64,000 nucleotides of DNA from Microbacterium hydrothermale (lineage in GTDB: Bacteria > Actinomycetota > Actinomycetes > Actinomycetales > Microbacteriaceae), in NCBI RefSeq assembly GCF_004854025.1, contig NZ_STGM01000002.1:124001-188000 (forward strand), written 5' to 3'. The notes under the pieces were generated by a model. The model ran no database searches. It was not told the origin of the DNA and saw nothing but the letters and a program-made list of their open reading frames with translations. The position numbers were made by a program, and so were the translations under genes. This document shows positions 11,987 to 39,719 of this stretch, one piece after another (the stretch's first letter is position 1; every line of letters starts with the position of its first letter).

Positions 11987-13654
11987 TCAGGCGCGCCGGA
12001 ACCGGAGCCGATCGCCCGGTCGCACCTGCGCGAGCGCGTCGAGGGCGGCATCCGTCACCACGGCGATCACGGGGTACCCGCCCGTGACGGGACCGTCGGC
12101 CAGCAGGATGACGGGCCGCCCGTGCGGGGGCACCTGGATCGCCCCCGGCCGCATGCCCTCGCTGGGGAGTTCGTCGTGACGCACGCGTTCGAGGGCGGGG
12201 CCGTCGAGGCGGATCCCCACGCGGTCGACGTCGCTCGAGACCGTCCATCGCGCCTCGAGAAGGGCCGCTCGCGCGGCGGCGGTGAACCAGTCGGCGCGGG
12301 GCCCTTCGGCGATCCGCACGTCGTGCAGCGCGGGCGGGACGGTCCACGGGAAGACGTCGATCGCCGGAACAGCGGATGCCGCCCGCCCCGCGTGGAGCAC
12401 GTCGCCCGCGCGCACGGGAGCGGGGCCGAGGCCGGCCAGCACGTCGTGCGAGCGCGAGCCCAGGGCGGCCGTGGTGACGACCCCGCCGCGGACGGAGAGA
12501 TGAGCGCGCAATCCCGCGCGCGCGGGACCGAGGCGGATCTCGCTCCCGGCGGGGACCAGCTGGGGCGCGTACATGTCGACCGCGCGATCGGCGACGACGA
12601 CGTCGACGAGAGCACCGGTCACGCACACCCACGTGTCGCTCTCGGCACGGGCGACGAAGCCGCCGACGGCGATCTCGAGGCCGGGGGCGCCCTCGTCGTT
12701 GCCCACGAGGCGGTTGGCGATGCGCAGGGCGCGCCGGTCGAGAGCTCCCGAGCGGGCGACGCCCAGGGCGGCACGACCGGGGCGGCCGAGGTCTTGCACG
12801 ATGGCGAACGCGCCCGGGTCGAGCACGCGGAGGGCGGGTCGGGGCGGGAGAGAGGAGGGGGCTGAGCCCGTCGGAGCCTGCGGACGCGGCGATGGGGAGA
12901 GGGTCCCGGCCCCTTCGACAGGCTCAGGGACCGCTGAGCGCGCAGGGGCCTCGGCAGGCCCAGCGACCTCGGCGGGCGCGAGCGGCGCCGCGGAGGTGAC
13001 GCGCTCGCGCTCCGGCACGAAGCGCACGCGCGCTCCCGGGGGCAGCAGCACCGGGGTGGCGGCATCCGGATCGAAGAGCACCGCGTCGGTCGCGCCGATC
13101 AGCCGCCAGCCGCCCGGGGTCTCGCGCGGATAGGCGCCGCTGAAACCGCCCGCGAGACCGACGGCCCCGGCGGGCACACGGGTGCGCGGCCGGGCGAGGC
13201 GCGGCACGTCGAAGGGCCAGTCCTCGCTGACGAGGTAGGCGAAGCCCGGGGCGAAGCCGGTGAAGGCGACCGTCCAGTGCGCCCCCGCGTGTCGGGCCAC
13301 GAGATCGACCGCCGGGATGCCGAGCAGCGCGGCCGTGTCGTCGAGGTCGGCGCCGTCGTACCGCACGGGCACCTCGACGAGGGGGCCGGGTCGCACCGCC
13401 GCGGCCCGCGAGCCGGTCGCGCGGCGGATCCACTGCTCGACGCCCGCGCGTCCGATGCGGGCGGGGTCGAAGGCGACGAGCACGGTGCGGGCGGCCGGGA
13501 CCAGCTCGTCCACGCCCGCGGGCGGCGCGGCGGCGAGCGCCGCGTGCAGCGCCAGGACGCCGGCGAGGTCGGCGACCTCGGCCAGCACGGCTCGCTCCCC
13601 CAGGGGTCTGAGGACGATGGCATCCGCCGGCTCGTCGTCTCGCGGCGAGGTCAC
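11987..13654 (-). CDS. pxpB-pxpC: 5-oxoprolinase subunits PxpB and PxpC fused (biotin-dependent carboxylase-like)
   Basis: 555 residues joining two usually separate subunits. The first part (about 1-205) is PxpB/KipI-like, with FTGFAPGFAYL and a glycine-rich GGFSGAYPRETPGGW segment; the second (about 245-555) is PxpC/KipA-like, with LGRPGRAALG and GALDRRALRIANRLVGN. With PxpA it hydrolyses 5-oxoproline (pyroglutamate) to glutamate using ATP. The GTG start at 13654 overlaps the pxpA stop by 4 bases, indicating translational coupling. The linker between the halves contains a 24-base dispersed repeat read as VPEPVEGAG. B-C fusions are common, so this is probably one working polypeptide. Confidence 0.88.
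   Translation of the reverse strand: MTSPRDDEPADAIVLRPLGERAVLAEVADLAGVLALHAALAAAPPAGVDELVPAARTVLVAFDPARIGRAGVEQWIRRATGSRAAAVRPGPLVEVPVRYDGADLDDTAALLGIPAVDLVARHAGAHWTVAFTGFAPGFAYLVSEDWPFDVPRLARPRTRVPAGAVGLAGGFSGAYPRETPGGWRLIGATDAVLFDPDAATPVLLPPGARVRFVPERERVTSAAPLAPAEVAGPAEAPARSAVPEPVEGAGTLSPSPRPQAPTGSAPSSLPPRPALRVLDPGAFAIVQDLGRPGRAALGVARSGALDRRALRIANRLVGNDEGAPGLEIAVGGFVARAESDTWVCVTGALVDVVVADRAVDMYAPQLVPAGSEIRLGPARAGLRAHLSVRGGVVTTAALGSRSHDVLAGLGPAPVRAGDVLHAGRAASAVPAIDVFPWTVPPALHDVRIAEGPRADWFTAAARAALLEARWTVSSDVDRVGIRLDGPALERVRHDELPSEGMRPGAIQVPPHGRPVILLADGPVTGGYPVIAVVTDAALDALAQVRPGDRLRFRRA
12910..12933. repeat. 24-bp dispersed repeat, copy 1 (inside the pxpBC linker)
   Basis: CCCCTTCGACAGGCTCAGGG plus ACCG, identical over 24 bases to a second copy at 38296-38319 in lhr. 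CCCT and AGGG at the ends are inverted. Here it is read in frame on the minus strand within the B-C linker. Confidence 0.8.
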
Positions 13655-14403
13655 CACGGGGCGCGGACCGCGATGCCGGCGTCGTCGAGCGCGGCGCGCA
13701 CCGCGCGGGCCGTCTCGACGGCGGCGGGGCTGTCTCCGTGCAGGCAGAGCGAGGCCGCCTCCACCGGGATCGTCGTGCCGTCGACCGCGTCGACCACCCC
13801 GTCGCGCACGAGCCGGACCGCCCGCTCCGCCACCCGGGCGGCGTCGTCGAGCAGCGCTCCGGGGGCTCCGCGCGGGACGAGGGCGCCGTCGCGGGTGTAG
13901 CCGCGATCGAGGAACGCCTCGCGCACGAACGGCAGTCCCGCGGATGCCGCGGCCTCGGCGATCGCGCCCCGCAGGCCGAGCACGGGCAGGGGGCGACCGA
14001 GGCGGGCGGAGTGGTCGGCGACGGCCGCGACGACCGCGGCGGCCTGCCCCGCGTCGTCGATGACGGCGTGGTACAGCGCGCCGTGGGGTTTGACGTAGCG
14101 CAGCTCGGCGCCGGCGGCGGTGAGCGCGTCGAGCTGCACCGCGATACTCCGGCGCAGGTCCGCGGGGGCGGGATCGCGGCGCACGCGGCCGAAGTTCGCG
14201 CGATCGTCGTACGAGGGGTGCGCGCCGACCGCGACCCCGAATCGGCGCGCGCGCTCGACCGAGGCGCGCATCGACGCGTCGTCGCCCGCGTGCGCTCCGC
14301 AGGCGACGTTGGCGCTCGACACGACGGCGAAGAGGGCCTCGTCGTCGGCGGTGGGCATCCCGTCCACCGTCTCGCCGAGGTCGGCGTTGAGGTCCACGTG
14401 CAT
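13651..14403 (-). CDS. pxpA: 5-oxoprolinase subunit PxpA (LamB/YcsF family)
   Basis: 250 residues, usual family length. Family signatures are present: DLNADLGE near the N-terminus, SANVACGAHAGD, GAHPSYDD, the YVKPHGALYH segment and LCLHGDSP near the C-terminus. PxpA supplies the catalytic site for ATP-dependent opening of 5-oxoproline. The ATG at 14403 is preceded by TACCGT six bases upstream, so the mRNA is probably leaderless; the longer frame to 14487 would lack protein-like sequence. It is first in a two-gene operon with the fused pxpBC. Confidence 0.9.
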   Translation of the reverse strand: MHVDLNADLGETVDGMPTADDEALFAVVSSANVACGAHAGDDASMRASVERARRFGVAVGAHPSYDDRANFGRVRRDPAPADLRRSIAVQLDALTAAGAELRYVKPHGALYHAVIDDAGQAAAVVAAVADHSARLGRPLPVLGLRGAIAEAAASAGLPFVREAFLDRGYTRDGALVPRGAPGALLDDAARVAERAVRLVRDGVVDAVDGTTIPVEAASLCLHGDSPAAVETARAVRAALDDAGIAVRAPW

Positions 14404-14594
14404 GGAGCCACGGTAGCGGCGGGCCCCGACAGCGCGGCGGGGCGCCGCGGGATCGCCCCGGCGTGTCACCACGGCACGGGATGCCACGGGACGGGACGGA
14501 CGACCGGAGCGGCATCCGGCCCCGGCGGACCTCCCGTCGTCGATGCCCCTCGCGCCCCGAACCGCCCGCGAGGGCGGGCCGGTAGCGTGAGCGC

Positions 14595-15555: not shown

Positions 15556-16083
15556 GTGAGCTACATCCACGGGTACGACCCCGACACGCTGCGCGAGATC
15601 ACCGACTCCCGCGAGTGCCAGGAGCGTCTCGACGAGATCGGGTCGCAGCGCAGCCTGCACGCCCTTCTCGAGCGGGTGTGGCTGCTGAAGGTGCTCGACC
15701 GCTTCGACGAGGCGCTCGCGATCTCGGAGCAGTCGGTGCGCGTGGCCCGCATGGCCGGGACGCGCCGCGACCTCCTGCGCGCGCGCATCCTGCACGCGAC
15801 GATCATGCAGTGCCGGGGCGCCTACGCCGCCGCCGAGCAGGAGCTGACGATGTGCGCCGAAGAGGCCGAGGGGCAGGGCTGGGCGAGCATCGCGGCCTTC
15901 GCCCTGCAGCACCGCGGCAAGGTGCACTACGACGAGGGCGACTTCGACAGCGCCCGCCGCGATTTCAAGCAGGCGCTGTTCCTGCGGCAGAACGCCGGAG
16001 CCACCGACGCTCAGCTCGAGTCCACGCTGCTGGCGATCGACGCGGCCGACCGTCGACGCACGCGCGAGGTCGTCGCGAGCTGA
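15556..16083 (+). CDS. Tetratricopeptide-repeat protein
   Basis: 175 residues, almost all helical. Helix pairs typical of TPRs are visible, for example LLKVLDRFDEALAISEQSV (about 40-58), the ILHATIMQCRGAYAAAEQEL pair in the middle and HRGKVHYDEGDFDSARRDF (about 121-139), with the usual small and aromatic positions. It probably scaffolds a protein interaction. The GTG at 15556 has a strong GAGAGGAG site five bases upstream, which decides the start. It has no transmembrane segment or signal peptide. Partner unknown; it is followed 30 bases later by the SprT-like gene, which has its own promoter. Confidence 0.78.
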   Translation: MSYIHGYDPDTLREITDSRECQERLDEIGSQRSLHALLERVWLLKVLDRFDEALAISEQSVRVARMAGTRRDLLRARILHATIMQCRGAYAAAEQELTMCAEEAEGQGWASIAAFALQHRGKVHYDEGDFDSARRDFKQALFLRQNAGATDAQLESTLLAIDAADRRRTREVVAS

Positions 16084-16106
16084 ATGTCGTAGGCCCCGCC
16101 TAGCCT
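16084..16106 (+). promoter_or_regulatory. PafBC/RecA-NDp-like promoter of the SprT-like gene
   Basis: ATGTCGTAG (16084-16092), eight bases, then TAGCCT (16101-16106), with the ATG seven bases on. Spacing fits TTGTCRGTG-N8-TAnnnT exactly; the upstream box has mismatches at its first, seventh and eighth bases. Confidence 0.5.
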
Positions 16107-16113
16107 TCCGGTC

Positions 16114-16602
16114 ATGTCCGATCTGCAGCGCGTCCGCACGTGGGCCGAGGCGTTGATCGCCCTGCACCTCGACGCGTCGTGGACGTTCGCGTTCGACAAC
16201 GCCAAGCGACGCGCGGGGCTGTGCGACTACGGCCGCCGCCGCATCAGCGTCTCGCGCTACCTCGCGGCGCGGTACGACGACGACACCAATCACCAGACGT
16301 TGCTGCACGAGGTGGCGCACGCGCTCGCGGGCGCCACCGCCGGCCACGGCCCCGCGTGGAAGCGCACGGCCTCCGAACTCGGCTACGTCGGCGGCACGAC
16401 CCACGCCGGAGAGACGGCGACCGAGCTGGCGCCCTGGGTGGGAACCTGTCCCGCCGGACACGTGGCCTATCGGCATCGGCGCGCGACGCGGCCGACGTCG
16501 TGCGCGCGGTGCGCTCCGACCTTCGACCCGCGCTTCGCGCTGTCGTGGGTGCGGCGCGACATCACCCGCGCCGAACGCGTCGCCGCCGCCACCCCGCGCT
16601 GA
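16114..16602 (+). CDS. SprT-like zinc metalloprotease
   Basis: 162 residues. The zinc motif HEVAH is at 65-69, followed by HGPAWKRTASELGY, the third-ligand region of SprT/SPRTN proteases, and a C-terminal zinc-ribbon-like part with CPAGH and CARC. Eukaryotic SPRTN and some bacterial SprT proteins degrade DNA-protein crosslinks, so a repair role is plausible but inferred. The promoter upstream resembles the RecA-independent DNA-damage promoter seen before lhr, which supports that. The gene lacks a ribosome site and is probably leaderless. Confidence 0.82.
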   Translation: MSDLQRVRTWAEALIALHLDASWTFAFDNAKRRAGLCDYGRRRISVSRYLAARYDDDTNHQTLLHEVAHALAGATAGHGPAWKRTASELGYVGGTTHAGETATELAPWVGTCPAGHVAYRHRRATRPTSCARCAPTFDPRFALSWVRRDITRAERVAAATPR

Positions 16603-16629: not shown

Positions 16630-17250
16630 TCAGGCGGAGACGAAGATCCCGTCGCGCAGCACCGGGACGACGGATGCCGCATCGCGCGCGGCTGCGGCGA
16701 GAACCTCCTCGCGCCCGCCGTCCGCGGCGATCGCGCGCCCACCTCCGCTCGCGGTGAGGAGGTGGCGCACCGCTCCGCCGAGGGCGCGGAAGCCCTCTCC
16801 CGCGACCGCGGCGTCGGGTGAGGCGTGATCGATCCCGAGGTCGCCGAGCGCGGCGACGACCGCGCCGGCCCCGAGCAGGTCCTCCACGGCGAATCGCGTT
16901 CCCGCGTCATCGATCTCGCCCGCCGCGAGCACGGAGATGCTCGTGCGTTCGGCGCGGGAGCGCTGCACCTCGAGCACGTGCGCGGCGACCGCCGCGGCGT
17001 TGCGCAGGCCTCCCGCCACGACGTGCGCGCCCGTCTCCGCCGCCGCGCGTGCCAGGGCGGCCGCCGCGTCGTCGTCGTCGGCGAGGTCGAGACCGGCCGC
17101 GTTCTCGACGGCGCTCAGCGCGTGGGCGGTCAGCCCCAGCGTCTGCACGATCACCACGATGTGCGCGGGAGCGAGGCGACGCAGCCCGCCCGCGCCCCAC
17201 TCCAGGCGCACCTGGTAGTCGGACTGCGAGAGGGCGGGGTCGATCGGCAT
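16630..17250 (-). CDS. ComB-like 2-phosphosulfolactate phosphatase family protein
   Basis: 206 residues. The N-terminus (DYQVRLEWGAGGLRRLAP) and the following IVVIVQTLG strand, then ISVLAAGEI and the FAVEDLLGAGAVV segment, resemble the ComB fold. ComB removes phosphate from phosphosulfolactate in coenzyme M synthesis, a pathway not expected here and with no other genes in view, so the true substrate is probably another small phosphate ester. Some active-site residues of archaeal ComB cannot be confirmed. TAGCAT (17257-17262) is six bases upstream of the ATG, another leaderless arrangement. Confidence 0.68.
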   Translation of the reverse strand: MPIDPALSQSDYQVRLEWGAGGLRRLAPAHIVVIVQTLGLTAHALSAVENAAGLDLADDDDAAAALARAAAETGAHVVAGGLRNAAAVAAHVLEVQRSRAERTSISVLAAGEIDDAGTRFAVEDLLGAGAVVAALGDLGIDHASPDAAVAGEGFRALGGAVRHLLTASGGGRAIAADGGREEVLAAAARDAASVVPVLRDGIFVSA

Positions 17251-22612: not shown

Positions 22613-23317
22613 ATGAGCGACACGGTGCAGACGCAGGAACTCGAGCTCGTCGAGGGACGACTCGTCCTGCTCGCGGGGGGTACGAGCGCGGCGGGACGCT
22701 CCGCCGCGCGGGCCCTCCGGGAGGCGGGCGCCCGGGTCGTGATCGTGGGGTCGGATGCCGCGCGCCTCGCCGACGCGGCACTCGCGGCACCGGGCGCCGC
22801 GACGGAACAGTGCGACCTCACCGACGCGGACGCCGTGGCCGCCCTGCGCGAGCGCGTCCACGCGGCGCACGGGCGCGTGGACGGTGTGCTGCATCTGGTC
22901 GGCGGGTGGCGCGGCGGCGGCGGGCTGGCCGGGCAGAGCGATGACGACTTCGCGTTCCTGCTGCGCTCGTTCGAGGCGCTGCGGCTCGTCAGTCGCGCCT
23001 TCGACGACGACCTGCGCTCCTCGCCCGCGGGACGACTCGCCATCGTCTCGTCGACGTCGGTGACACGCCCCCTCGCGGGCGGGGCGAACTACGCGGCGGT
23101 CAAGGCCGCGAGCGAGGCATGGACGCGCGCCGTCGCCCAGGGTTTCGCCAAGAGCGCCCGCGACGCGGACCGGGCGATCTCCGCGGCGGCGGTCATCTTC
23201 CGCGTCAAGAGCCTCGAAGGGCTCGAGGACGCCCTGGCCGCCGCCTTCGTGGCGCTGTGGGACGACACCGCCGACGCGTTCAACGACGTCGTGATCGAGG
23301 TGGGCGCGGGCGCCTAG
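22613..23317 (+). CDS. SDR family oxidoreductase
   Basis: 234 residues from the chosen start. Rossmann motif LLAGGTSAAGRSAARAL (a variant of TGxxxGxG), an acidic CDLTDADAVAAL segment, VDGVLHLVGGW (in place of NNAG), catalytic SSTSV serine region and NYAAVKAASEAW with the Tyr and Lys of YxxxK. Substrate unknown. Start: ATG 22613 has GGAG seven bases upstream; ATG 22580, adding MTTSETTTETT, is possible but its GGAG is only three bases away. Its TAG stop shares the palindrome CTAG with the stop of the convergent MFS gene. Confidence 0.8.
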   Translation: MSDTVQTQELELVEGRLVLLAGGTSAAGRSAARALREAGARVVIVGSDAARLADAALAAPGAATEQCDLTDADAVAALRERVHAAHGRVDGVLHLVGGWRGGGGLAGQSDDDFAFLLRSFEALRLVSRAFDDDLRSSPAGRLAIVSSTSVTRPLAGGANYAAVKAASEAWTRAVAQGFAKSARDADRAISAAAVIFRVKSLEGLEDALAAAFVALWDDTADAFNDVVIEVGAGA

Positions 23318-24771
23318 ACCTCGGTGGGGCGACGGGGGTCGAGACCGGGGGCGGGGGCCGTACCGGCGTCGGTGCGCGGGTCGGCGTGCGTCGCGGGCTC
23401 GGGGGCCGACCGGTAGAGCTGCGACAGGGTGCGGTACGACCGCGAGAAGAACGCAAGCACGCCGACGACGACCATGACGAGCCCCGCGAAGACGAACACG
23501 AGCGCGATACCCCGCGACTGGCCCTCTCCGAGGAGCCAGCCCCAGGCGGCTCGCCCGCTGTCGCCGTTCATGTAGGGGATCACGAGGAACTGAGCGATCG
23601 GGGCGATCAGGAACGAGGTCACGGGCGCCGCCGCTGATTCGAAGGCAGCCGCGAAGCCGAAGACACGCCCCTGCGTGTCGAAAGGCACGACCCGTTGGAT
23701 GACGGTCTGCTCGGCCGCTTCGACGGGCGGGATGAGGGCCATGTAGACCCAGATGCCGATCCCGTAGAGCCACCACCACTCACGCAGGGTGAATACCGCG
23801 CCCAGCGCCCCCATCGCGATGACGATCCACAGCATCGTGCGGATCGGGTTGCGTCCGAGCCCGAACTTCGCCACGAGACCGCCGCCGACGATGAAGCCCG
23901 TCGCCGTGACCGCCAGGACGACGCCCCACACCTCCGCCTCGTAGACCCGACCGTCGATCTCGAGACGGTAGAGCTCGAGACCGTAGGGATCCATGAGTGC
24001 CATGTAGACGCCGCCGATCAGGTTGTTGAACGTGGAGAACAGCAGCAGGGCGAACAGCCCGGGCGCCGCGCGCACCGCACGGATGGCGCCGGCGACGTCC
24101 ACCACCGGACCGCGCTGCGCGCCCGCGACAGGAGGGGGCTCGGGGATGCGGATGGTCAGGAGGTGGAGGAGGGCCACGACGGTGAGCACGACCGCGATCG
24201 CGAGCGTCCACCCCATGCCCAGGAACCCGACCGACAGCCCGCTGAACACGCTCGTCACGACGAACGCGAGGCCCTGCACGGTGCCGACGAGCCCGTTGGC
24301 GTTCGCGTGCCGTTCCACGGGAACCAGGAGGATGACCGTCGTAGACAGGGCGATGTTGCGGAGATTCTCGATCACGGCGCCGCCGAGGATGATTCCCGAG
24401 AACAGCCAGAACCACGGGCCGCCGAGGTCGAGGAGCACCGACTCGGGGAAGCTCAGCCACAGGGCCCCCGCGAGGAGGAAAGCCGCGAGGGTCACCACGC
24501 CGGAGACGACCATGACCCGGTGCTTGCGATGGCGATCGACCAGCGTTCCGAACACCATGGCGAAGACCGCCAGCAGCAGCATGTATGCACCGCCGACGAT
24601 TCCCGTGGCGAGAACCGACCGCGTCTCGAGATAGACCCAGAAGGTGAGCGCGAACCAGAGGAAGCTGGTCGTGACGTTTGCCGCGGCCGTGTTGATCACG
24701 ACGCCGAGGAACGTGCGCCGCCCCCGCGCGGGCGTGACCGCGTCGGCTGCGGCGGACGGCGAGGCGGACAT
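23314..24771 (-). CDS. MFS transporter, probable exporter
   Basis: 485 residues with about twelve membrane segments. The loop between helices 2 and 3 reads GTLVDRHRKHRVMVVSG, the MFS motif A, and helix-rich halves flank a central loop near IPEPPPVAGAQ. The family is that of drug exporters, but the substrate is unknown. The C-terminal tail (from about 450) is Pro/Asp-rich. The ATG at 24771 is six bases from TACCGT, itself eight bases from ATGTCGGAG: the DNA-damage-type promoter also found before lhr. This makes export of a genotoxin a reasonable guess. Confidence 0.8.
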   Translation of the reverse strand: MSASPSAAADAVTPARGRRTFLGVVINTAAANVTTSFLWFALTFWVYLETRSVLATGIVGGAYMLLLAVFAMVFGTLVDRHRKHRVMVVSGVVTLAAFLLAGALWLSFPESVLLDLGGPWFWLFSGIILGGAVIENLRNIALSTTVILLVPVERHANANGLVGTVQGLAFVVTSVFSGLSVGFLGMGWTLAIAVVLTVVALLHLLTIRIPEPPPVAGAQRGPVVDVAGAIRAVRAAPGLFALLLFSTFNNLIGGVYMALMDPYGLELYRLEIDGRVYEAEVWGVVLAVTATGFIVGGGLVAKFGLGRNPIRTMLWIVIAMGALGAVFTLREWWWLYGIGIWVYMALIPPVEAAEQTVIQRVVPFDTQGRVFGFAAAFESAAAPVTSFLIAPIAQFLVIPYMNGDSGRAAWGWLLGEGQSRGIALVFVFAGLVMVVVGVLAFFSRSYRTLSQLYRSAPEPATHADPRTDAGTAPAPGLDPRRPTEV

Positions 24772-24777
24772 GGACAC

Positions 24778-24800
24778 ACGGTAGACCCGACCTCCGACAT
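24778..24800 (-). promoter_or_regulatory. PafBC/RecA-NDp-like promoter of the MFS gene
   Basis: On the minus strand ATGTCGGAG (24792-24800), eight bases, TACCGT (24778-24783), six bases, ATG. It has the exact N8 spacing and a full TAnnnT box, making it the best of the four matches. Confidence 0.55.
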
Positions 24801-34968: not shown

Positions 34969-34991
34969 ATGTCGGAGGTCCGGGGGAGGAT
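34969..34991 (+). promoter_or_regulatory. PafBC/RecA-NDp-like promoter of lhr-nei
   Basis: ATGTCGGAG (34969-34977), eight bases, GAGGAT (34986-34991), six bases, ATG. The box and spacing match the mycobacterial TTGTCRGTG-N8-TAnnnT DNA-damage promoter, with a weak first base in the -10. Mycobacterial lhr is a known member of that regulon. Confidence 0.5.
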
Positions 34992-34997
34992 GTCGGC

Positions 34998-37900
34998 ATG
35001 GCCGACGTGCTCGAGAAATTCGGTCCTGCGACGCAGGACTGGTTCCGCGGTGCGTTCTCCGCGCCCACCAACGCGCAGAAGGGCGCGTGGGAATCCGTCT
35101 CGTCGGGCCGCAACGCCCTCGTGGTCGCGCCCACCGGCTCGGGCAAGACGCTGTCGGCCTTCCTCTTCGCGATCGACCGCATCTTCCGCGAGAAGGCGCC
35201 CGAGACCCCGGATGCCGCGCCCCCGCGCCGCGGTAAGAAGTCCGCCGCGAAGGTCCCGACGACGAACACCCGCGTCCTGTACATCTCGCCGCTGAAGGCC
35301 CTGGGCGTCGACGTCGAGCGCAACCTGCACTCGCCCCTCGTCGGCATCGGCCAGTCGGCGCGCCGGTTGGGCATCGACGTGCCGAACGTGACGGTGGGGG
35401 TCCGCTCGGGCGACACCAGCTCGAGCGACCGACGCAAGCTCGTCAGCGACCCGCCCGACATCCTCATCACGACGCCCGAGTCGCTCTACCTGATGCTCAC
35501 GAGTCAGGCGGCCGAGACCCTTCGCGGGGTGCACACGGTCATCATCGACGAGGTGCACGCGGTCGCCGCGACCAAGCGCGGAGCGCACCTCGCGGTGAGC
35601 CTCGAACGCCTCGACGCCCTGCTCGATGCCCCCGCGCAGCGCATCGGCCTCTCGGCCACCGTGCGCCCCATCGACGAGGTGGCGCGGTTCCTCGGCGGAG
35701 CGCAGCCCGTCGACATCGTGGCGCCGAAGGCGACGAAGGCCTTCGACCTCTCGGTCGTCGTCCCCGTCGACGACATGCTCAACCCGCCTCCTCCTCCGGG
35801 CTCGCCGGCCCCCGACGAGGCGACCGACGGCGAGTGGTTCTCCGACCGCCCCGAGAGCACCGAGATGGCCGGCTCGGTGTGGCCCCACGTCGAAGAGGCG
35901 ATCGTCGATCGCATCCTGCAGCGACGCTCGACGATCGTCTTCGCCAACTCCCGCCGCCTCGCCGAGCGACTGACCGGCCGGCTCAACGAGATCTACGCGG
36001 AACGGCAGGGCATCGACGTCCCCGAGCCGACGGTCCCCGCTGTGACGATGGCGCAGGCGGGATCGTCCGCCGGGGTCGCCGCGATCCTCGCCAAGGCCCA
36101 CCACGGCTCGGTGTCGAAGGAGCAGAGGGCGCAGGTCGAAGACGAGCTGAAGTCGGGGGCGCTGCGCTGCGTGGTGGCGACGAGCAGCCTCGAGCTCGGC
36201 ATCGACATGGGCTCGGTCGACCTCGTCATCCAGGTCGAGTCGCCGCCCAGCGCGGCATCCGGGCTCCAGCGCGTCGGACGCGCGGGGCACCAGGTCGGCG
36301 AGGTGAGCCGGGCAGCGCTCTTCCCCAAGCACCGCAGCGACGTGCTGCACACCGCCGTGGTCACCGAGCGCATGCTCGGCGGACGCATCGAGGCCATCTC
36401 GGTGCCGCAGAACCCGCTCGACATCCTCGCCCAGCAGACGGTGGCGGCCTCGGCGCTCGGGGCGATCGACGTCGAGGAGTGGTTCGACACGGTCAAGCGC
36501 AGCGCGCCGTTCCGCTCGCTGCCGCGTTCGGCGTACGAGGCGACGCTCGATCTGCTCGCCGGACGCTATCCCTCCGACGAGTTCGCCGAGCTGCGACCGC
36601 GCCTGGTGTGGGACCGCGACGCCGGCACGCTCACCGGCCGCCCGGGGGCGCAGCGTGTCGCGGTGACCAGCGGCGGAACCATCCCCGACCGCGGGTTGTT
36701 CGGCGTCTTCGTCGCGGGCGAGTCGCAGAACGCCCGCGTCGGCGAACTCGATGAAGAGATGGTCTACGAGTCCCGCGTCAACGACGTGTTCACGCTCGGC
36801 ACCACGAGCTGGCGGATCGTCGAGATCACCCACGACCGCGTGAACGTCGTGCCCGCTTTCGGGCAACCCGGCAAGCTGCCGTTCTGGCACGGCGACGGCA
36901 TCGGACGCCCCGCCGAACTCGGCGAGGCCCTCGGCAAGTTCTCGCGCGACATCGCCGGGGCCGACCGCGCGAAGGCCGAAGAACGCCTGCGCGAGTCCGG
37001 ACTCGACGACAACGCGATCACCAACCTCCTCGCCTACCTCGCCGAGCAGCGCGAGGCCACCGGCAGCCTCCCCACCGACAAGACGCTCACCGTCGAGCGC
37101 AGCCGCGACGAGGTCGGCGACTGGCGCATCATCCTGCATTCCCCATACGGCATGCAGGTGCACTCCCCCTGGGCGCTGGCCGTCAACGCCCGCATCCGCG
37201 AGCGCCTCGGGGTCGAGGGCGCCGCCGTCGCGAGCGACGACGGCATCATCGCGCGGGTTCCGGATGCCGCGGCCGAGCCGCCCGGAGCCGAGCTCTTCGT
37301 GTTCGAGCCCGACGAGCTGGAGCAGATCGTCACCGACGAGGTGGGCGGCTCGGCGCTGTTCGCCTCGCGCTTCCGCGAGTGCGCGGCGCGCGCGCTGCTG
37401 CTCCCGCGCCTGAACCCGAACCGCCGGTCGCCGCTGTGGCAGCAGCGGCAGCGGTCCGCGCAGCTCCTCGAGGTGGCGCGGCGGCACCCGAGCTTCCCCA
37501 TCATCCTCGAGACCCTGCGCGAGGTGCTGCAAGACGTCTACGACCTCCCGGCCCTGCTGCGTCTCACGCGTCAGATCGGCGAACGTCGCATCCGCCTCGT
37601 CGAGATCACCACCTCGCAACCCTCGCCGTACGCGCGCGACCTGCTGTTCGGTTACGTGGGCGCGTTCATGTACGAGGGCGACTCGCCGCTGGCCGAGCGC
37701 CGCGCCGCCGCCCTCTCGGTCGACCCCGCCCTGCTGAGTGAGCTCCTCGGCAAGGTCGAGATGCGCGAGCTGCTCGACCCCGACGTGATCGCCCAGTTCG
37801 AGCGCGAAGCGCAACGCCTCGCGCCCGACCGCCGCGCGCGAGGAGTGGAGGGCGTCGCCGACCTGCTGCGCATCCTCGGCCCCCTCGACGCGGCCGAGGT

Positions 37901-39719
37901 GGCGGCACGCCTCGACACGGGGGAGAGCACCGAAGAGAGCATCGACGGAGACGCCGACGCCGTCGCCCAGGCCGAGCGACACCTCGCGACGTTGGTCGAC
38001 GAGCGACGGGCGATCCGCGTCACCATCGCGGGCGTCCCGCGCGTGGCCGGCATCGAAGACGCCGGGCGTCTGCGCGACGCTCTCGGGGCGGCACTGCCCG
38101 TCGGCATCCCGAACGCGTTCCTCGAGCCCCTCGCCGACCCGCTCGGCGATCTCGTCGCGCGCTACGCCCGCACCCACGCGCCCTTCACCACCGACGCGGT
38201 CGCCGAGCGGCTCGGAGTCGGGGTCGCCGTCGCCCGTCTCACCCTGCAGCGGCTCGAATCGCAGGGGCGGCTCGCGAGCGGTTTCTTCCTGCCCGCCCCT
38301 TCGACAGGCTCAGGGACCGGTGCCTCAGAACGCGGCGACGAGACCGAGTGGTGCGACGTCGAGGTGCTGCGGCGTCTGCGCATGCGCTCTCTGGCGGCCA
38401 TCCGCGGGAGCGTCGAACCCGTGCCCCCCGCCGCGTACGCGCGGTTCCTGCCGGTCTGGCAGCACCTCGGTCGCCCCCTCGAGGGGATCGACGGCGTGCT
38501 CGCCGTCGTCGAGCAGCTGGCCGGGGTGCCCATCCCCGCGAGCGCGTGGGAATCGCTCGTGCTGCCCTCGCGCGTCGCCGATTACACCCCCGCCCTGCTC
38601 GACGAGCTGACCGCGACCGGAGAGGTGGTCTGGTCGGGTCACGGCACCCTGCCCGGCCGCGACGGATGGATCGCCCTCCACCCGGCCGAGGCCGCTCCGT
38701 TCACCCTGCAAGACCCCGAGGACGCCGACGACCCGGCCCCCGACTCGCTCGAGGCCCGCATCCTCTCGGCCCTCGCCGGCGGAGGTGCCTACTTCGCGGC
38801 GCAGCTGAAGCAGCTCGCGGGCGCCGAGAACGAGCAATCCGTGAACGACGCGCTCTGGGCCCTCACGTGGGCCGGACGCGTGACCAACGACACCTTCGCC
38901 CCGGTGCGCACCCTGCTCAGCGGCGGCGGGCAGTCGCACCGTGTCGCGCGCCGCGCACCGCGCGCGCGGATGTATCGCGGTGCCGCCATGCCCCGGGCGA
39001 CGTCCGCCCCGCGACCGCCGTCGCTCGGCGGCCGGTGGTCGCTCCTGCCCGATCGCGAGCCCGACCCGGCGGCCCGGGCCACCGCCACCGCGAGCCTGCT
39101 GCTCGACCGCTACGGCGTCGTGACCCGCGGTGCCGTGCAGTCGGAGGGGGTGCCCGGCGGCTTCGCGCAGGTCTATCGCATCCTCGCCGGTTTCGAAGAG
39201 GCGGGTCACTGCCGACGGGGGTACGTCATCGAGAAGCTCGGCGCCGCGCAGTTCGCCGCCTCGGCGACCGTCGACCGTCTGCGCGAGTTCGCCGCCGTCG
39301 CCGACCCCCCGCCGCTGCGCACCGTCACCCTCGCGGCCACGGATCCGGCGAACCCCTACGGCGCCGCCCTCGGCTGGCCCGCGATCGAGGGTGTCACGCA
39401 CCGACCCGGGCGAAAGGCCGGCGGCCTCGTGGTGCTGGTCGACGGCGAGCTCACGCTCTACCTCGAGCGCGGAGGGCGCAGCGCGCTGGCCTTCACCAAC
39501 GACGAAGCCCGGCTGCAGGCCGCGACCCGGCACCTCGCCGAGACCGCGCGCCGGAGACGACTCGAGACGCTGACGGTCGAGCAGGTCAACGGCGAATTCG
39601 TCTACGGCACCGCCGTCGGCCGCGCACTGCGCGAAGCGGGGTTCGTCGAGTCGCCGAAGGGGCTCACGCTGCGCAAGCTCACGGCCGGAGACTCCCTGCG
39701 CGAGGCCGCTCGTGCCTGA
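34998..39719 (+). CDS. lhr: Large ATP-dependent helicase Lhr
   Basis: 1573 residues, full length for actinobacterial Lhr. Helicase core: Walker A APTGSGKT (44-51), DEVH box 184-187, SATV motif III, VVATSSLELGIDMG and QRVGRAGHQVGEVSR (motif VI); then the Lhr winged-helix and beta-barrel modules and the long Lhr C-terminal domain. Lhr is a 3'-5' single-strand-DNA-dependent translocase/helicase of DNA repair. At about residue 1100, in a linker, a 24-base dispersed repeat is read as STGSGTG. The gene overlaps nei by 8 bases and is preceded by a DNA-damage-type promoter. Probably leaderless. Confidence 0.95.
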   Translation: MADVLEKFGPATQDWFRGAFSAPTNAQKGAWESVSSGRNALVVAPTGSGKTLSAFLFAIDRIFREKAPETPDAAPPRRGKKSAAKVPTTNTRVLYISPLKALGVDVERNLHSPLVGIGQSARRLGIDVPNVTVGVRSGDTSSSDRRKLVSDPPDILITTPESLYLMLTSQAAETLRGVHTVIIDEVHAVAATKRGAHLAVSLERLDALLDAPAQRIGLSATVRPIDEVARFLGGAQPVDIVAPKATKAFDLSVVVPVDDMLNPPPPPGSPAPDEATDGEWFSDRPESTEMAGSVWPHVEEAIVDRILQRRSTIVFANSRRLAERLTGRLNEIYAERQGIDVPEPTVPAVTMAQAGSSAGVAAILAKAHHGSVSKEQRAQVEDELKSGALRCVVATSSLELGIDMGSVDLVIQVESPPSAASGLQRVGRAGHQVGEVSRAALFPKHRSDVLHTAVVTERMLGGRIEAISVPQNPLDILAQQTVAASALGAIDVEEWFDTVKRSAPFRSLPRSAYEATLDLLAGRYPSDEFAELRPRLVWDRDAGTLTGRPGAQRVAVTSGGTIPDRGLFGVFVAGESQNARVGELDEEMVYESRVNDVFTLGTTSWRIVEITHDRVNVVPAFGQPGKLPFWHGDGIGRPAELGEALGKFSRDIAGADRAKAEERLRESGLDDNAITNLLAYLAEQREATGSLPTDKTLTVERSRDEVGDWRIILHSPYGMQVHSPWALAVNARIRERLGVEGAAVASDDGIIARVPDAAAEPPGAELFVFEPDELEQIVTDEVGGSALFASRFRECAARALLLPRLNPNRRSPLWQQRQRSAQLLEVARRHPSFPIILETLREVLQDVYDLPALLRLTRQIGERRIRLVEITTSQPSPYARDLLFGYVGAFMYEGDSPLAERRAAALSVDPALLSELLGKVEMRELLDPDVIAQFEREAQRLAPDRRARGVEGVADLLRILGPLDAAEVAARLDTGESTEESIDGDADAVAQAERHLATLVDERRAIRVTIAGVPRVAGIEDAGRLRDALGAALPVGIPNAFLEPLADPLGDLVARYARTHAPFTTDAVAERLGVGVAVARLTLQRLESQGRLASGFFLPAPSTGSGTGASERGDETEWCDVEVLRRLRMRSLAAIRGSVEPVPPAAYARFLPVWQHLGRPLEGIDGVLAVVEQLAGVPIPASAWESLVLPSRVADYTPALLDELTATGEVVWSGHGTLPGRDGWIALHPAEAAPFTLQDPEDADDPAPDSLEARILSALAGGGAYFAAQLKQLAGAENEQSVNDALWALTWAGRVTNDTFAPVRTLLSGGGQSHRVARRAPRARMYRGAAMPRATSAPRPPSLGGRWSLLPDREPDPAARATATASLLLDRYGVVTRGAVQSEGVPGGFAQVYRILAGFEEAGHCRRGYVIEKLGAAQFAASATVDRLREFAAVADPPPLRTVTLAATDPANPYGAALGWPAIEGVTHRPGRKAGGLVVLVDGELTLYLERGGRSALAFTNDEARLQAATRHLAETARRRRLETLTVEQVNGEFVYGTAVGRALREAGFVESPKGLTLRKLTAGDSLREAARA
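38296..38319. repeat. 24-bp dispersed repeat, copy 2 (inside lhr)
   Basis: Identical over 24 bases to 12910-12933, in the same plus-strand orientation, but read in a different frame and on the sense strand of lhr. It lies in a Pro/Ser/Gly linker of Lhr, so it is an in-frame insertion that the protein tolerates. Confidence 0.8.

Follow-up and report, generated by a model that had tools for sequence, protein, structure and literature searches.

The sprT gene described here lies in a window of 64,000 nucleotides from Microbacterium hydrothermale (contig C11:124001-188000, genome of 3.58 Mb). It occupies positions 16114-16602 of the forward strand and encodes a SprT-like metalloprotease of 162 residues. 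This assignment combines the open reading frame, a match to the Pfam SprT-like family (PF10263, 46.5 bits for a cut-off of 25.6), an AlphaFold2 model and its comparison with VIA-align. Upstream, the stop codon of a gene encoding a TPR protein is found at 16081-16083, and the promoter box begins directly after it. Since the next gene downstream (16630-17250) is on the opposite strand, sprT is probably a single gene behind its own promoter.

The promoter box upstream of sprT and its conservation

Positions 16084-16106 read ATGTCGTAG-N8-TAGCCT, in full ATGTCGTAG-GCCCCGCC-TAGCCT. The A at 16084 precedes TGTCGTAG, the -26 element of the box (16085-16092), followed by a spacer of 8 nt, GCCCCGCC (16093-16100), and by the -10 element TAGCCT (16101-16106), all on the forward strand. 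A pattern search returned TGTCGTAG-N8-TANNNT as an exact match at 16085-16106. The initial annotation, which had placed a full box with exact spacing and its SprT-like gene at 16084-16602, was therefore correct on both the box and the coordinates. The ATG at 16114 is located 7 nt past the -10 element. As a transcript starting 6-8 nt past the -10 would begin at or beside this ATG, the sprT mRNA is predicted to be leaderless, probably so.

The mycobacterial PafBC promoter (RecA-NDp, or P1) has the consensus tTGTCRgtg-8nt-TannnT (PMC5656591). The TGTCR core is present at sprT as TGTCG (16085-16089), together with the 8-nt spacer and the TANNNT -10. The GTG tail of the published element is absent and is replaced by TAG, at a weak, non-defining position of the consensus.

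The box was then compared among sprT orthologues. With the pattern [TC]GTC-N12-TANNNT, it was found at 79 of 80 named-record loci, compared to 0.03 expected from shuffled sequences. These 80 loci are the closest ones (72-95% protein identity, 76 of them titled Microbacterium), and the figure thus holds at genus level only. One of them, L312 (JASDDH010000015.1), is titled Planococcus sp. APC 4015 and encodes a SprT 78% identical to ours; the record is probably mislabelled or contaminated. The box ended 6 nt before the start codon at 32 loci and 7 nt before it at 47, the exception being L319. Narrower patterns gave 73/80 (TGTC only) and 53/80 (strict TGTCGNNG).

In these 79 boxes, the spacing was preset by the search pattern, and the invariance of the -10 is built in because the boxes were selected for TANNNT; at its N positions, G, T/C and C were preferred. 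The GTC core, for which the boxes were also selected, was invariant and its flanks were variable. Base 6 of the element, a T in our box, was most often G (37 boxes), followed by T (33) and C (9). The tail triplets included TAG (28), GAG (16) and GTG (4), so that the tail is mostly TAG or GAG here, in contrast to the mycobacterial promoters. No TTGACA-like columns appeared at the -35 position in the 79 orthologues.

A random resemblance might be suspected, as the TAG tail differs from the published GTG. However, the box stays at 6 or 7 nt from the start codon at 79 of the 80 orthologous loci, which leaves this explanation with almost no credibility, and we reject it.

Outside the genus, conservation was less regular. 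In other Microbacteriaceae genera, the box preceded sprT at 31 of 95 loci (0.06 expected), or at 24 with TGTC only and 9 with the strict form; it was missing at the 64 others, many of which have nothing left of the box but a TANNNT ahead of the start, or adjoin the upstream gene directly. A small number of boxes could have escaped detection in this set, as the mapped start was not a start codon in about 10 of the 95 rows, for which in-frame alternatives were tried. Universal control of sprT by the box throughout the family is thus rejected. In other families of the class, the box was found upstream of sprT at 5 of 11 loci (0.03 expected). Three of the 11 were hardly tested: L176 has 35 masked bases upstream, and L185 and L186, both from family f20, are partial matches for which the true start was not found. 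The box lies 6-7 nt from a GTG start in L179, L181 and L182, and 33-46 nt away in L183 and L184. The first three belong to one other family of the class, carry the boxes CGTCGGTG, TGTCGGTC or TGTCGGTG and encode SprT proteins 41-45% identical to ours, which suggests an ancient or repeated recruitment.

A protein tree was built from 111 rows, comprising all 95 loci from other genera and 16 of the 80 with named records; 47 carried a box and none was dropped. The box label required 15 changes on this tree, compared to 35.8 after shuffling; support was good in only 14 of 108 inner branches and several rows were long. Altogether, judging from the upstream sequences, control of sprT by the box is the rule in Microbacterium, uneven within the family and recurrent in distant lineages. 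The initial annotation had named lack of conservation upstream of orthologues as a refutation of its proposal; this refutation did not materialise, since the box is conserved throughout Microbacterium and, in part, outside the genus.

The box class across the genome and a probable PafBC-type regulon

The window contains TGTCGNNG-N8-TANNNT 3 times, where dinucleotide shuffles predict 0.11, and the whole genome has 99 sites, compared to 4 for the reversed pattern. At 67 of the 99 sites, the nearest start codon, defined as the first downstream ATG or GTG opening a reading frame of at least 50 residues, followed the box after 6 nt (50 sites) or 7 nt (17 sites). This feature sets the box class apart from the mycobacterial PafBC promoters. 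The recA gene is not leaderless, its start being more than 50 nt behind its box. The two other boxes of the window are on the reverse strand: one (24778-24799) lies 6 nt before the ATG of an MFS transporter gene (23317-24771), the other (14410-14431) 6 nt before the ATG of a LamB/YcsF gene (13654-14403).

Of the 99 box genes, 37 were scanned against Pfam and 62 were assessed by eye alone. Some of the scanned genes had been selected by eye because repair seemed their likely function, and the shares are thus not those of a fair sample. Besides SprT, 20 of the 37 are involved in repair, recombination, replication or chromosome handling: AlkZ-like, a UvrD-type helicase, RecG, SRAP, GyrB/ParE-type, UvrA, UvrB, RadA-like, Tag, RecQ, RecF-type, Mfd-like, DnaX, two Exo_endo_phos proteins resembling exonuclease III, UvrD, SbcD, DnaE-type, RecA and FtsK. 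For the remaining 16, Pfam either gave no family or suggested no evident part in repair; they include DUF222, an M4 peptidase, an MFS transporter, LamB/YcsF, a GDSL lipase and IMPDH. As the box class also precedes such genes, the box alone does not prove a repair function. Exact boxes also stand before some less expected genes, encoding an AlkZ-like protein (L064, a putative crosslink glycosylase), an M4 thermolysin-type peptidase (L117) and a DUF222 protein (L070). The 99 sites (loci L064-L153 and the window) form a large, mostly leaderless set of PafBC-type promoters open to annotation of each gene in turn.

The genome also encodes the corresponding activator. The pafB and pafC genes are adjacent, and the best PDB matches of their products are the PafBC chains 6sj9 and 7p5x; NCBIfam returned no name for PafB or SprT. 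By eye, a tatC-like gene and a tRNA methyltransferase-like gene are among their neighbours. As in the mycobacterial PafBC regulon, recA and uvrA are among the targets, and the promoters share the TGTC core, the 8-nt spacer and the TANNNT. Unlike in mycobacteria, pafBC is not beside pafA, since Pup ligase was not found in this genome, which retains pafB-pafC. In mycobacteria, PafBC, once it has bound single-stranded DNA, works with the SigA holoenzyme on the -26 motif (PMC11804915).

The box might also be viewed as an ordinary leaderless SigA promoter of the genus, in which TGTCG would be a general extended-promoter feature and sprT would not be under damage control. Leaderless genes are common in actinobacteria, and several box genes appear, by eye or from Pfam, to be involved in metabolism or transport. 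We consider this reading improbable, because there are only 99 exact sites in the whole genome, many of them before repair genes, because the GTC core is invariant in the 79 selected boxes while the flanks vary and -35-like columns are absent, and because the box is built like the mycobacterial PafBC consensus (PMC5656591). Thus, the box class probably represents a DNA-damage regulon of the PafBC (RecA-NDp) type; the promoter was correctly called, and the conservation of the box lends good support to sprT as a member. The regulon type is already known; sprT is an added member.

The initial annotation had joined sprT, through a shared promoter type, to a damage regulon containing lhr, and membership in a damage regulon agrees with the 99 sites, which include repair genes, and with the presence of PafBC. 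Its inclusion of lhr in the regulon was only partly upheld. The lhr helicase gene (34998-39719, forward strand; 1573 residues with DEAD, DEAD_assoc, WH_Lhr and related domains) starts with an ATG 6 nt past a related box, TGTCGGAG-N8-GAGGAT (34970-34991, forward strand), which departs from the pattern at two positions. Its TGTCGGAG element, spaced as in a leaderless gene, fits the claim; the -10 is degenerate, as GAGGAT is not a full TANNNT.

Among the open-access papers searched, supplementary tables aside, none mentioned SprT together with PafBC or Microbacterium together with PafBC. In the same papers, those on SprT, DNA damage and mycobacteria did not, by title, deal with this topic, and none was found on Rv3226c and DNA damage.

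Family and fold of the SprT-like protein

The protein contains an HExxH motif (H65 E66 V67 A68 H69, codons at 16306-16320), of which H65, E66 and H69 are invariant in 22 orthologues. The third zinc ligand is probably H78 (16345-16347), also invariant in these orthologues. A putative second zinc site extends over codons 112-133 (16447-16512) and comprises C112, H116, C130 and C133, four residues invariant in the same set. All these features are on the forward strand.

The AlphaFold2 model had a mean pLDDT of 86.8 and a pTM of 0.62, with a poor stretch at residues 96-101. VIA-align ranked human SPRTN first (6mdx, Z 11.2 over 101 residues at 2.5 A; 6mdw, Z 11.0), with jannalysin (4jix, Z 10.6) counted as tied. 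Other minigluzincins (Z 7.3-10.1), Wss1 (6.6-7.3) and PprI/IrrE (5.6-6.0) scored lower. These alignments took in very little of the model's C-terminal half. Foldseek placed jannalysin first (E 1.1e-3) and SPRTN fifth and sixth (2.4e-3); all these matches were weak and none reached 0.001. In a PDB sequence search, 4jix was the sole match below E 0.001, and SPRTN was not found among the matches. VIA-align and Foldseek provide rankings and second looks at one and the same model, and families missing from them are not thereby excluded.

Human SPRTN digests proteins stuck to DNA. Our protein shares with the SprT domain of SPRTN/Spartan (6mdx) the SprT-like family, the HExxH motif, a third conserved histidine and the first-ranked fold, whereas identity is only 19% over the 101 aligned residues. 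Moreover, with 162 residues it ends soon after the Cys/His segment and, judging from this length, leaves no room for modules binding PCNA, p97 or ubiquitin. With the archaeal minigluzincins (jannalysin, selecase, abylysin; Z 7.3-10.6), it shares a compact metallopeptidase core, whereas their chains of 104-112 residues have no segment for its whole C-terminal Cys/His part. Judging from its Pfam match, the model and its length, the protein thus resembles SPRTN in both family and fold without being SPRTN itself. The SPRTN-type protease proposed in the initial annotation agrees with this family and fold; the C-terminal modules of SPRTN are absent by length.

A SprT orthologue was found in 117 of the 119 genus genomes, the two without it being 44% and 81% complete, and in 142 of 150 genomes of the family. 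At class level it was found in 25 of 296 genomes: 14/14 in its own family, 0/13 in the other families of the order, and 11 elsewhere.

Pup ligase, SRAP and the proposed role of SprT

Pup ligase showed a different distribution. It was not found in any of the 150 Microbacteriaceae genomes and was present in 250 of 296 genomes of the class, including 13/13 from the other families of the order. That SprT and Pup ligase exclude each other as a rule is unsupported outside the order, as both occur together in nine genomes (families f33 and f35); further evidence against it comes from f21 and f32, where genomes without Pup ligase are likewise absent from the SprT matches.

This distribution bears on another possible function, in which PafBC-regulated SprT would cleave a regulator or proteins of the regulon and thereby reset the response, instead of acting on crosslinks. 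PprI/IrrE is a regulator-cleaving protease, and the similarity of our model to its fold would fit such a role. In M. smegmatis, lowering RecA again requires the Pup-proteasome (PMC8223512), and SprT could replace it in a family without Pup ligase, the more so as all 13 genomes sampled from other families of the order have the ligase and gave no SprT match. However, the SPRTN fold is closer than that of PprI/IrrE (Z 11.2 vs 6.0), and the contrast between SprT and Pup ligase amounts to one clade, all nine SprT-positive f33 and f35 genomes having the ligase. We therefore regard a reset function as doubtful and lean slightly towards DNA-protein crosslinks as the substrate of SprT.

A specific crosslink is suggested by another gene of the box class. 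Proteins of the SRAP family form crosslinks with abasic sites. The SRAP gene (HMCES/YedK-like; L075:1087-1794, G000 C1) has the same promoter type and was found in 59/59 genomes of the genus. Among the 30 best-scoring Microbacterium loci, our own included, the box preceded SRAP in 28, with TGTC in 18 and CGTC in 10, the latter read by eye from the rows at the same spacing; it was not found at L351 and L362. SPRTN accepts the HMCES crosslink as a substrate in Xenopus extracts, and YedK and HMCES are also able to reverse their own crosslink (PMC9436759). Microbacterium shares with the vertebrate HMCES/YedK SRAP-SPRTN route the SRAP and SprT genes, here both preceded by the box across the genus; an action of the two Microbacterium proteins on each other would be conjectural. 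The co-regulation of SRAP and SprT hints at a functional pairing but does not prove it.

HMCES crosslinks are reportedly processed by the proteasome (PMC7782752). Because of this, and because Pup ligase was not found in Microbacteriaceae, SprT could be the protease for HMCES-type lesions in this family. In its full form, the analogy would give Microbacterium a counterpart of the vertebrate HMCES-SPRTN route, in which AlkZ-like unhooking, abasic-site capture by SRAP and digestion by SprT would be united under one PafBC-type promoter class, SprT having taken over crosslink proteolysis after the loss of Pup ligase and, presumably, of degradation by the Pup-proteasome; we consider this complete scheme rather unlikely.

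The less specific mechanism that we propose would start with DNA damage, the resulting single-stranded DNA activating the PafB-PafC heterodimer. SigA RNA polymerase would then use the -26 (TGTCG...) and -10 (TANNNT) elements, with no -35, and produce a leaderless sprT mRNA. SprT, as a compact SPRTN-like zinc protease, would most likely digest proteins crosslinked to or trapped on DNA, and repair enzymes expressed from the same promoter type would complete the repair. By analogy with the known regulon, we infer that sprT is induced by damage; its enzymatic role may be soundly inferred from family, fold and regulon.

By title, nearly all of the papers found on DNA-protein-crosslink proteases concern eukaryotes, and bacterial SprT proteins are not known to have a settled job. 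Because a conserved damage-type promoter stands before the gene, the promoter of sprT points to a role in the repair of damaged DNA, which gives Microbacterium SprT a testable function. The presence of SRAP in the same regulon adds a specific, testable substrate, the abasic-site crosslink formed by SRAP.
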